NCBI GenBank assembly: GCA_963855995.1
Contig: OY979731.1
Location: 4,682,942 to 4,746,941 of the forward strand
Reading direction: 5' to 3'
From: Muricea muricata
Lineage: Eukaryota; Cnidaria; Anthozoa; Malacalcyonacea; Plexauridae
Length of the DNA stretch: 64,000 bases
Shown one piece after another: positions 26,539 to 62,465 of this stretch. A program made the position numbers and the translations under genes. Numbering within the stretch: the first letter of the stretch is position 1; each line of letters starts with the position of its first letter. The notes below the pieces were generated by a model that saw only the letters and a program-made list of their open reading frames with translations, was not told where the DNA came from and searched no databases.

Positions 26539-28679
26539 ATGATGGATGCTTTATGTCCTCAATTGTCCCTTAAAATCTTAACCTTATACTTGCTGATTTT
26601 CAACGTGGCAAGATTGAACGCAGAACAATGTCGCGTGTTGGATTATCAAATTGTTAGTGAAGGTTAGTATTTCTTGCAGAATTCCCACATTTAATGGAAC
26701 ATCTGGCCGATAATCACCCGTTGGGTAATTATGCAGCGATAAAATTTACAATTTTTCCTTCTTTTGCGTCCAAAGAACTTACACCAATACGTAGTTATAG
26801 ATATCACACCATCAAACATTAAATAAACACACAAATCATGTATATCAAGCTCAATATGCGCCAAAACTAATCGATTGTAAGCAGGACATGTCTTGAACAG
26901 TGTCGAAATCAATAGCAGCAACTGTAGGCAGCTGTATCGTCCGCTGCATTCAAAGTATTTATTGAACAGAAAACGAAAGAAATGATTAAAATACAGTTGC
27001 TTGAAATACAGTTAAACTAATTGACAAAACAAGAAGTTGGCAATGTTGCCTTGCCTCTCTGTAAATATCGGCTGCTTTTGTTTAGATACGACAAAGAAAT
27101 ATTATGCTTCAAAAATGCTCGAATCCCAAGACGAGCAAAATGAAATCGATTTGCATAAAGTCTGCAAGTCAAAAATTCCATTTGGGGAAAGTTAGATTGC
27201 ACTTAAAATGCAGCTATTCCTTTTTATACCAACATGGTTTGTGTTTATTTCACCACAGGGAATGGCGCATGTCGAATGAGGATTAAACATTGATTTTCAT
27301 TTCGCAGCAATCACAAGTTGGAAATTTGAGAAAAATCAAGGTTTAAATCTAAAAGCAATATTTCTGTGATGCTTTGATAAATGTGCTTAAGCAGCAAAGA
27401 TAGTCAACATAACAAAATGCAATATAAACAATATTCGACTTTGAAAAAAATCTTTGTTAAATTTTCGTTATAGTGTCATTTTTGTGAGAAACACTGTAGG
27501 ACAGCAAAAATTTAAAACATACGTTGAAAACGATTTTTTGGGGATTTTTTAAGTCTATTTACGTTTGTGTTTTTAAATTTTCAGATTTTTCGACTTTGAT
27601 TTGTTCGTCTTGAATGCTCGAACTAAAAGGATGCTGCCTTCAAGACATGCTAAGTGCTAAAGTAGTAAATCCTGTCATTTAACTCGTTTGCAAAGTAGCA
27701 CGCAAGTTGTTTTACGGAAATTGCATAAAAGAATCAGATGTCTTTTTTGATAAGTCGGTTGTAACATAAAACGAAGGTTATATTGAGGGGGAATCTCAGG
27801 TTAGCCTTAGGTGTCTATTGTACTTTGAATAATTTTATCGAAAATGTCCCCAAAAAACACCCGTAAAAACTTAATCGCGTTTACGCACATAAAGTCTTCG
27901 ATCGAAAGCAAATAAAAATCGAATAAAATGTCTAAGAAAAACATTTTACTATGCGTAAGAAAGCATGTATGCATCCATAAACGATTCAAATTCAAAAAAA
28001 TAAAATGCAAACTATAGACAGCAACTTATATCTTATAGTTTGTATTTGTAATACTTTTAATTGTGTTTTTACAGGTGGTCCACCTTTGCTTCTGAAGGAA
28101 ATTATTTCTAATCACACTGTGGAACCAAGTGTCCAAACAAACTGTAATCATCTTTGCTAGAAAGAACCCAAGTGTGTTGGATTTAATTTCAGAACCAAAA
28201 CCGATGGGAAGCAGCCAGTAAACTGTCAACTTACTAACACCACGAGAAGAAAAACTAATAAAAGACCGGGAGACTGGACACTATTTTATGATGTTGATGC
28301 GGTGTGTATATTTAGAATGTTCGTAATCAGTTTCTAATGAAAATTTATAGGTATACCTACAATATTGGTATCACATCATAGTAAAATTCACGACTCAACA
28401 AAATCCCATAATGCTATGCGTGCATTGTTGTGGGTGCCGAATTCCATCAGGCTCAAAACATAATGTCGGCGCTTAAGAGCTATAAAAAGTTCAAGGCTTT
28501 AATACAGCTGAAAGTGCTCTTTATACCTCCAAAGCGCCAACATCTTGGAAAAACGAAAAACCGTGTAGATACGAAAAATCTATTTATGTACATCACGGCT
28601 AACCCAACAAACTATAATGCCCAATGACAGGGGATCTTGAAGACCTACGATTTTAACGGCCGTATCCGAAGTCTTGAGA

Positions 28680-28745
28680 AATATCTGAAGACCTTGAGTA
28701 GAGGTTTGACTATAAGGTTCAAACCCGGGTCTCCCAGCTAGAAAG
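28680..28745 (-). repeat. tRNA-like B-box (possible SINE relic) in copy A intron 2
   Basis: The minus strand reads AGCTGGGAGACCCGGGTTTG followed by AACC. This contains a B-box-like GGTTTGAACC, but no A box or cloverleaf was found. Weak evidence for a tRNA-derived SINE. Confidence 0.25.
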
Positions 28746-59657: not shown

Positions 59658-59695
59658 GTGACGCATATCTAAAGTCCATTAGATGATTCCGAAAC
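59658..59695 (+). promoter_or_regulatory. Putative core promoter of copy E (shortened)
   Basis: GTGACGCATATC begins only 38 bp before the ATG. The TTATTTCAG part found in the other copies is deleted. Confidence 0.4.
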
Positions 59696-62465
59696 ATGAA
59701 GGCAGTCCTATCTCCTCGATTCAGAATGTTAACCTTATCCTTGCTGTTTCTCAACATAGCAGGATTTAAAGCAGAACAATGTCGCGTTTGGAAATATCTG
59801 ATCGTCAGTGAAGGTTAGTATTTTACCTTTTCAAAAAAATCGTCATGTTTAATAGGAATAAATTTGCGCGCAAACCACCGAAAATAAAAACAACCTCGTT
59901 TATCTCGTTATTTTTATACGCACCTCGTCGGCCATCAGCCCATACACGACTCGAGCTCATGGAATAATTCCTAAATATACAACTTTTACTGATCATAAAG
60001 TTATACATTGCTTTCTGTCGTATTCATCTGTTTTGTGATCCATTCCTTTGAGCATATATTGATAAAAAATTATATCTAGCTACCAGTTTATATTGTAGCA
60101 CAGCTAATGCATGATCCGTCTAATAGGTGCTCAACCACATTTTGTATTTATTTAGCCTTGCGTCGCCTTTTACAACCAATTACGAGGCTGAAATAAAGTA
60201 CTTACAATATTTTGTACTTCGTTAAAACAGGACCACCTTTGTCTACGAAGGAGATTATTTCTAATCACACTGTGGAACCACATGTCCAAATACACTGTCA
60301 TTATCTTTGCTACAAAGAACCCAACTGTGTTGGATTTAACATCAGAACAAAAACTGATGAGAAGCAGCCAGTAAACTGTCAACTCACTAACACCACGAGA
60401 AGGAAAACTAATAAAAGGCCGGGAGACTGGACATTATTTTACAGTGATGTTGATGCGGTATGTATATTTGAAATGTTTGTAATGAGTTTCTAATGAAAAT
60501 GTTTTAATGGTATACATTAACGCTATAGCACAACACAGGGTATACAGGGTGTATTTGTAAGGAATAATTAATTTCTTAACGTTTACGCTTTTTGGCACAG
60601 CTTCACGAATAACAGCGATTTCAGGTATAGTCAGTAACAGCGATTTCAGGTATAGTCAGTAACAGCGACTTCACGTAGTAATACACAATTATCACACCAG
60701 ATTTTGTTTATCCTTGGCGGGACAATAATTAAGGTTGATAAAAAGTCGGTCAGTGTGGTATTTTTCAAAATTACATCCCACCTAAGGTCGAGAAAAGTTT
60801 CAGCATGGGTGGAGCTTACAGAAGAGGCAAACATTTTGTACTGACAGAACTTATCAACTGATTTGAGTAAATTCCTTATAAATACGCACGAATAAGATAC
60901 AGTATTCTGTTTGGTCAAATAACAAGAAATTGTGAACGTTTTACAAATTTTTCAAAATTTTCGAAAGGTCGTCAGAGGAATTGCTAAAGTTGAGGAAATA
61001 AATTATTCAAATATTTCCATAATGCTTCTGTTGTCGCGACTGTAATATATTTTTTATTTCCATAATATATTTTTAATTTTTTATAGGTAAAGACTGAAGG
61101 TAGAAATACGAACATGACAGGTTTTTATACTCGTCATTTATGGTACTGGATAAATACTTTCATAAACCCTATACGAAATTAAGATTTCTATATCTTTAGC
61201 ATATCAGTTAAAGATGAGACTATACGCGGCGAATAAGGTTGCAAGACAAATTTTCAATTCTTATTTATTCTTGTCAGTGTACTCATGATCGAGGACATTT
61301 CTTCATGATTATAGACTATTTTGGGCAGAAGAACAACTTTATTGGCAGAAATTTCTCATAGAAATTGCAGAGAGAAACATACTGAAATGACCAAGCGGAT
61401 ATGACGATTTCACCTTTAGCTCTTAACCAATAAAAACTCCTAAAATATTTTTAACAAATAATAATAATATTTATTATATAAGCTTAGTGTTATATAGAAA
61501 CTTTGGCTACTCGGAAATGTCGTATTAGACGCGCGGTAAAAATATCGTATCAACACACGTAAAAATACGATATTTTTAAGTGTGTTGATACGATTTTCCA
61601 GCCAATGAGAAGTCACAAAGTAAATTTAACTATCTAATCACAACGCTTTTTATAAATTATATATTTTTTTAAATTTCTTTAGCCATTTTTCATCTTTCAA
61701 ATTGTTTTGTACAAAGTTTTACATGTAAAATTTGAAAACCATAAACAAATTAATGAAAAAGACGTTGACGAGTTCAAAGAAGCGGAAGAAAACCAAAAAA
61801 TTAAAAGAAAACCAGGACTAGACGTCAATTTAATCCATTCTTATATCGTAAAGGAAGCCGCATTGCATGTCAATAGACCTCCGAGAATGAAAGAACTGTC
61901 GCCGTTTGAACTCAATACACATGAACTGAAACAAGTGAACTTAAAACGTTTGTTAAATATCGTTTTTACTGTAACTTACTTTGTTTTAAAGTTATACTAT
62001 ACCGTTTTTGCCGTTGTTTAAAATGCATGCGAAGGTTTATATAATAAAATGAATAATACATGAGTGCTTGGAAATACCAGATTTATTTCTCCTGTTAAAC
62101 CTGATATCTCAGATATCAAGTTCAACACTCGAAATAAATCTGGTATTTTCGCACAATCATGTATTATTCTCTGTATATTGCGTACATGATTATATAATAA
62201 TAATAATAATAATAATAATAATAATAATAATAATAATAATAGATAAAACGTTACCATTGTAGAATTAAAGAGCCGAATTAAGGAGTGTTCAACACCGAGT
62301 ACTTGTACAGAAATACGAAAACAAGACACCAGTCTACCCAGTGGAAACTACGATATCAATCCTGACAACCGCACGTCTAATACTGTTGCAGTCTATTGTG
62401 ATATGACCTCAGAAAATGGTACTGGTGTGACAGTAATTGAACATGATAGTGAATCAAGGACTGAG
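59696..62465 (+). CDS. PAN/apple + CNTNAP-type fibrinogen-like secreted protein, copy E (partial, runs off the right edge)
   Basis: Exons: 59696-59813, 60231-60457, 61087-61099 (13 nt, encoding VKTE) and 62263-62465. Together 561 nt, 187 open codons. Signal peptide MKAVLSPRFRMLTLSLLFLN..., two residues shorter than the others. PAN/apple-like exon: HCHYLCYKEPNCVGFNI, VNCQLTNTTRR. Exon 4 begins the fibrinogen-like domain (SRIKECSTPSTCTEI, AVYCDMTSENGTGVTVIE) with an extra cysteine (KEC). It ends at a phase-0 GTATGA donor at 62466. No exon 5 is found to 64000, so it must lie outside the window, if present. No lesion is seen. With copy B, it is the best candidate for a working member. Confidence 0.8.
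60611..60677. repeat. 25-bp tandem repeat in copy E intron 2
   Basis: AACAGCGATTTCAGGTATAG plus TCAGT, repeated twice with a partial third copy. Confidence 0.9.
61546..61595. repeat. Small inverted repeat in copy E intron 3
   Basis: ATCGTATCAACACAC pairs with GTGTGTTGATACGAT around an inner AAAAATACGATATTTTT. Confidence 0.8.
61707..62021 (+). pseudogene. Possible Crypton/DUF3504-type recombinase N-terminal relic in copy E intron 3
   Basis: The frame contains DVDEFKEAEENQKIKRKPGL, DVNLIHSYIVKEAA and MKELSPFELN. The spacing (acidic helix, +K+ motif, DVNL helix, ELSP.ELN) recalls the N-terminal core-binding part of Crypton-derived tyrosine recombinase-like proteins. No catalytic domain follows. 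A weak call that could be chance. Confidence 0.3.
62052..62168. repeat. Inverted repeat with 38-bp arms
   Basis: Arms 62052-62089 and 62131-62168 (AATAATACATGA...ATTTATTTC) pair with few mismatches. The centre contains GATATCTCAGATATC. MITE-like. Confidence 0.8.
62194..62241. repeat. (TAA)n microsatellite
   Basis: About 16 TAA units ending 22 bp before the exon 4 acceptor of copy E. Confidence 0.95.

Follow-up and report, generated by a model that had tools for sequence, protein, structure and literature searches.

The systems closest to the genes considered here are the contactin-associated proteins (CNTNAP/Caspr and neurexin IV), FREPs and other mollusc fibrinogen-related lectins, fibrillar collagens with their COLFI domain, and USOMP-5 and coral egg-protein-like sequences. 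Passages of published papers report a PAN/apple domain in one Biomphalaria FREP and some Lottia FReDs (PMC7588048), expanded FREPs in Nematostella cnidocytes (PMC12549020), a coral expressed sequence tag matched to a contactin-associated protein via a discoidin domain (PMC2291459), two contactin-associated markers in larval cells (PMC12225738), and a signal peptide and a length of 256 amino acids for USOMP-5 (PMC4043741). Here we describe a gene array in a 64,000-nucleotide stretch of the octocoral Muricea muricata (the window; contig OY979731.1, C16:4682942-4746941 of a 453-Mb genome, C-numbers being contig labels), whose predicted products pair a PAN-like module with a CNTNAP-type fibrinogen-like module. 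Judged by sequence, the PAN exon and the framework of the domain are conserved, and the same few loops are diversifying in three gene clusters. We rate the odds as about even that the window holds part of a tandem, fast-turning-over octocoral family of small secreted modular proteins with a germline-diversified role in recognition.

The array family resembles CNTNAP proteins in its fibrinogen-like module, which is 34-39% identical to three laminin-G-adjoining modules, but it lacks laminin-G, an EGF match and a membrane-spanning stretch, carries a PAN-like module instead and forms a large tandem family. Like FREPs, it would be secreted, multigene and fibrinogen-related; unlike them, copy B, a complete gene of the array, has no match to the immunoglobulin superfamily (IgSF) at E up to 1 and scores below the Fibrinogen_C cut-off (18.1 versus 22 bits), and the array domain lies on the CNTNAP-type branch. 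Of the seven members of set A2, one matches Fibrinogen_C at E up to 1 (best 0.00044) and all seven match COLFI (best 4.5e-8). The collagen likeness is partial, however: only about the first 40 residues align, in one C10 member and in the match from the Protein Data Bank (PDB), and copy B, read from its sequence, holds no Gly-X-Y triple helix within its 335 codons. USOMP-5 and coral egg-protein-like sequences resemble the family by description only, in a stretch overlapping fibrinogen-related subdomains (a passage of PMC6824150). Our best reading of these comparisons is that the family would work like FREP-type lectins, yet is neither CNTNAP nor FREP. Its component parts are known and the PAN plus CNTNAP-type combination seems little studied; in the literature searched (titles, abstract openings and passages of cited papers), a secreted family of this kind with common variable loops was undescribed.

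A tandem array of five-exon genes

Five related plus-strand units, A-E, occupy positions 26539-62465 (26.5-62.5 kb) of the window, and unit positions are given in window coordinates throughout. The first-pass annotation of the window had proposed five tandem units in 36 kb, a five-exon gene model and a mix of intact and dead copies, all of which were borne out: B and E are complete, C and D are dead, and A, whose status had been left unstated, is dead as well. Copy B is predicted to be a complete gene of five exons and 335 codons, stop included, with GT/AG ends on every intron, and the same model gives an open frame with GT/AG introns in copy E. The annotation had ended copy E at 62465, where in fact exon 4 ends; its exon 5 follows 10.7 kb 3' of exon 4, at 73133-73567 and 9.1 kb outside the window, and this rules out a copy cut short. 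An array ending within the window is likewise ruled out by two downstream units, F (79388-82894; complete and open, with GT/AG sites) and G (broken). Copy A is disabled by a TAG in exon 2, the PAN exon; of copy C there is only an exon 5, put out of frame by a deletion of 19 nt; and copy D is interrupted by a TGA in exon 4, has lost 57 nt from exon 5 and reads AA where the acceptor of that exon should have AG. The 13-nt microexon (exon 3), with AG/GT signals, is also present in A, D, F and G. Four-copy repeat families of 141-300 nt (D2, D3, D4 and D6) are 62-91% identical to their reference copy. The units are made up as follows.

26539..26662, plus strand: copy A exon 1, signal peptide (76% identical by tblastn to exon 1 of copy B; donor GT)
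28075..28301, plus strand: copy A exon 2, PAN-like (TAG stop at 28158-28160)
28798..28810, plus strand: copy A exon 3, 13-nt microexon (AG/GT signals)
29954..30156, plus strand: copy A exon 4, first part of the fibrinogen-like domain
32272..32709, plus strand: copy A exon 5, remainder of the fibrinogen-like domain (open)
34681..34804, plus strand: copy B exon 1, signal peptide (spliced model GT/AG, open frame; hydrophobic core)
35317..35543, plus strand: copy B exon 2, PAN-like (spliced model; PAN_1 18.7 bits, below cut-off)
35626..35638, plus strand: copy B exon 3, 13-nt microexon (spliced model)
35983..36185, plus strand: copy B exon 4 (spliced model)
36925..37362, plus strand: copy B exon 5 (two length-variable loops, alignment columns 41-55 and 127-136)
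40092..40510, plus strand: copy C, solo exon 5 (frameshifted, 19-nt deletion)
47534..47657, plus strand: copy D exon 1
49983..50209, plus strand: copy D exon 2, PAN-like (open)
50796..50808, plus strand: copy D microexon (AG/GT signals)
51173..51375, plus strand: copy D exon 4 (TGA stop at 51214-51216)
52001..52390, plus strand: copy D exon 5 (57-nt deletion, AG acceptor lost)
59696..59813, plus strand: copy E exon 1
60231..60457, plus strand: copy E exon 2, PAN-like
61087..61099, plus strand: copy E microexon
62263..62465, plus strand: copy E exon 4
73133-73567, outside the window: copy E exon 5 (open frame, GT/AG)

Two minus-strand fragments accompany the array: an antisense exon 4 fragment of the same family at 19032-19124, a relic upstream of the units, and a reverse transcriptase fragment (RVT_1) at 38778-39809, between B and C.

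The product of copy B begins with a hydrophobic core of the signal-peptide kind in exon 1, at which we infer cleavage. Past the signal peptide it has no membrane-spanning stretch (the top 19-residue mean is 0.61), it ends just after the module, and spliced copy B has no laminin-G match in Pfam at E up to 1, all in keeping with the earlier suggestion of a secreted protein free of laminin-G. COLFI was the sole Pfam family over its cut-off in spliced copy B (27.9 versus 26.2 bits, residues 134-319); PAN_4, like Fibrinogen_C, remained below (14.8 versus 27 bits). Searched against the PDB, copy B gave nothing credible, the PAN profile had no match up to E 10, and the domain profile matched collagen C-propeptides weakly (best E 0.0022).

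A CNTNAP-type module beside a PAN-like exon

Exon 5 has 94 matches across the genome (84 after merging those within 3 kb), scored from 98 first-look candidates and located on C1, C16, C10, C2, C3, C4, C58 and C7, with 27 on C1 and 21 on C10. Three of the 94 are CNTNAP-like loci adjoining same-strand laminin-G, on both sides at C3 and C2 and as two upstream matches at C7, where the upstream side only was seen. Exon 5 aligns to the modules at these three loci with 38.9%, 34.1% and 33.7% identity (E 5e-27, 1e-19 and 5e-21; exon 5 residues 4-144, 18-144 and 9-108). Pfam confirmed laminin-G in the C2 and C7 frames, and an EGF-like stretch lies between laminin-G and the module, below cut-off at C2 (19.2/21.5) and by eye at C7 and C3. 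On homology tested within this genome, the module can thus be called CNTNAP-type, as the annotation had supposed; an unrelated exon 5 domain, which it had named as the contrary outcome, was not what we found. The C2 and C7 module frames themselves match no Pfam family at E up to 0.1, so the COLFI label of the array copies may only reflect a missing profile for the CNTNAP module. In a tree, very long branches lead to the CNTNAP-like modules, which fall in two places; because several nodes have low support, the placement is split and the C7 sequence is partial, their position means little. An origin of the array as a recent offshoot of a CNTNAP gene is not supported, given those very long branches.

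Assignment of exon 2 to the PAN domain is supported with caution. In copy B, exon 2 alone scores below the cut-offs of PAN_1 (18.7 versus 21.4 bits) and MANEC (16.7 versus 25.5 bits); at E up to 1, PAN_1 is matched by 7 of 11 exon 2 copies (best 0.00026) and MANEC by 8 of 11 (best 0.0058). Exon 2 also matches C8:3358052, C8:3448903 and C1:13091037 (E 3e-10 to 3e-8), and as all three of these same-genome paralogues exceed the PAN_1 cut-off, they tie exon 2 to accepted PAN domains. The PAN-like label given in the first pass therefore holds as homology to PAN_1 through paralogues, but not as a PAN profile over its own cut-off.

Diversifying selection on the same loops in three clusters

Exon 5 of the C16/C3 group comprises 21 loci (L014-L034), of which 17 were aligned after exclusion of the near-identical partners L017, L023 and L032 and the frameshifted L034; site models used 16 of the 17, C3_23.6 being excluded for its long branch. 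Window copies C and D were outside the test, with C represented by an intact counterpart described below, and the dead copies A and G were in the main test and out of its repeat. The C1 set comprised 11 of 13 copies (L042 and L071 excluded), of the 27 C1 matches, and the C10 set 7 of the 21 C10 matches.

Over 139 ungapped columns of the 16 C16/C3 copies, model M2a improved on M1a with a 2dlnL (twice the log-likelihood difference) of 44.1, against a null maximum of 17.9 in 40 simulations, and selected sites fell at columns 45, 48, 55, 100 and 133 of the group's own alignment. The same sites were recovered in two repeats run without simulations of their own: one that dropped A, G and C's solo exon (39.1; 13 copies) and one confined to C16 (32.7; 11 copies), which added column 115 at 0.81. 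The seven C10 copies gave 54.8 against a maximum of 5.1 (60 simulations) and the 11 C1 copies 34.6 against 2.7 (16 simulations). In a joint alignment, sites over 0.8 were 45, 48, 55, 100 and 138 for C16; 6, 42, 51-54, 64, 101, 137, 139 and 141 for C10; and 5-7, 42, 57, 101 and 139 for C1, so that columns 42-57, 100-101 and 137-141 contain 5/5, 9/11 and 4/7 of them, respectively. This agreement of loop sites between three clusters is the strongest point of the analysis. Positive selection was not found in the PAN exon (17 copies, 2dlnL 0.0), which rules that exon out as the driver of diversification; of the test for selection that the first pass had proposed, the exon 5 loops gave a positive result in all three clusters and the PAN exon did not.

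Across the 17 exon 5 copies, the mean nonsynonymous rate (dN) is 0.14 and the mean synonymous rate (dS) 0.49. By counting in 14 C16 copies, dN/dS is 0.30 in the framework, which indicates that the copies are under constraint, and 1.05 in the two length-variable loops. A loop value near 1 would suit a structural, mineral or egg matrix family, in which the proteins were bulk components of mesoglea, sclerite matrix, mucus or yolk and the loops little constrained. For such a role, passages of the literature note that USOMP-5, a stony-coral skeletal protein, has a stretch in common with coral egg proteins and that matching sponge sequences hold fibrinogen-related subdomains (PMC4890752, PMC6824150), and that neurexin (contactin-associated protein) is among the core coral skeletal proteins (PMC8382919). 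We nevertheless regard it as unlikely: the codons picked by the site models have dN/dS near 5 or more, not just near 1, in three clusters, and the main text of an octocoral skeletal proteome (PMC11959691) mentions no fibrinogen, contactin, apple or PAN domain, neurexin or lectin.

Family extent and array turnover

At least 35 of the 94 exon 5 matches have a same-strand PAN-type match upstream within 16 kb, a rough count based on a hand-picked part of the PAN lists. The units closest to copy B, which also have exons 1, 2 and 4, are on C16 (4.65-4.98 and 6.88-6.97 Mb) and C3; the copies read on C10, C58 and C1 have both domain halves in one open frame and other N-termini. Near-identical duplications at C10:7234478, 7327609 and 7551566, recognised by equal scores only, are possibly unmerged haplotypes or recent duplications.

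Parts of the C16:4.65-4.76 Mb region are matched at 4.89-4.98 Mb by partners showing 97.7-99.6% identity where compared, and the two regions may be two haplotypes in one assembly or a recent duplication. In the partner array, copy A is without about 700 bases including the PAN exon, copy B is missing, the counterpart of C's exon 5 (98.9% identical) is intact and without the 19-nt deletion, copy D carries the same TGA, and copy E has an empty site in place of a 3.8-kb insertion. The insertion, in intron 4 of copy E (67502-71340 in window coordinates, outside the window), is flanked on both sides by TTAG, contains a 588-amino-acid open frame with DDE_Tnp_1_7, which we take to be a piggyBac-type transposase, and is a recent transposon insertion. 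Between the window units, A matches B at 73-97% in 60-base windows up to the end of exon 5 and at 92-100% past it (from 32700), and copy C begins like B and finishes like D.

Other features of the window and genome

Elsewhere on the minus strand of the window, a 1609-amino-acid open frame at 3660-8489 has a gypsy-type retroelement look, by eye only, and a single 325-amino-acid open frame at 21051-22028 matches rhodopsin-type G-protein-coupled receptors; a long array of pentanucleotide repeats, with several of its frames open, occupies 153-842. Contig C74 (19,292 bases) carries a MutS family gene together with COX1, the latter as one uninterrupted match in a 536-amino-acid frame. As a mitochondrial MutS gene is the mark of octocorals, this contig most likely identifies the host as an octocoral and not a stony coral. 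A COX1-like sequence with one stop at C1:38414782-38416095, within a large contig, is likely a nuclear copy of mitochondrial DNA. A search for GFP gave a single broken match, of little use.

A candidate recognition scaffold

Fast loops on a rigid core, as these sequences suggest, are expected of proteins recognising varied targets. The loops would form a ligand face contacting varied non-self or partner surfaces, such as those of microbes, symbionts, prey or other colonies, and the conserved PAN module may tether or multimerise the protein in mucus or matrix. Unequal exchange between repeats, suggested for A and B by their 92-100% likeness beyond exon 5, would make and delete copies, and copies have been lost, gained and interrupted between the two near-identical versions of the array.

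Several observations weigh against a recognition role. Across whole exon 5, dN exceeds dS in 0 of 136 pairs; dS is itself raised in the loops (0.44 versus 0.25 in the 14 C16 copies), so that misalignment or short gene conversion contributes; when four segments of ungapped columns were given separate trees, the last, with loop 2, was weak (3.4), and one segment was also high at columns 88 and 93, outside the common loops; completeness is established for A-G only, so dead copies may be among those tested; and quickly changing loops would fit venom, mating or self-matching proteins too.

The raised loop dS, the patchwork identity of A with B and of C with B and D, and the several dead copies all favour a reading that puts most of the apparent selection down to gene conversion and misaligned loops, in a decaying array whose loops are relaxed. 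Gene conversion of the loops possibly contributes to the signal, but as its main source we consider it improbable: the other three segments still give 15.2, 30.2 and 26.7 on ungapped columns with trees of their own, the signal persists when A, G and the solo C exon are dropped, the three clusters pick neighbouring or equal positions, and the framework dN/dS shows constrained copies. A venom or prey-capture component from stinging or gland cells, its loops diversifying against prey, seems to us the least probable of these alternatives, with nothing in the sequence pointing to stinging cells.

Preferring a recognition role, we advance more tentatively, and at somewhat less than even odds, the specific proposal that the CNTNAP-type fold serves octocorals as a germline-diversified recognition scaffold, with dozens of secreted copies, the same loops selected in each cluster and haplotype-variable content, used in pathogen, symbiont or self/non-self discrimination. 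If the loops do bind varied targets, the CNTNAP module, which serves nerve-cell adhesion, would have a sister function in invertebrates as a scaffold for recognition. In an animal group whose molecules for discriminating self, symbionts and microbes are mostly unknown, three clusters with the same variable loops offer ready candidates for recognition molecules.

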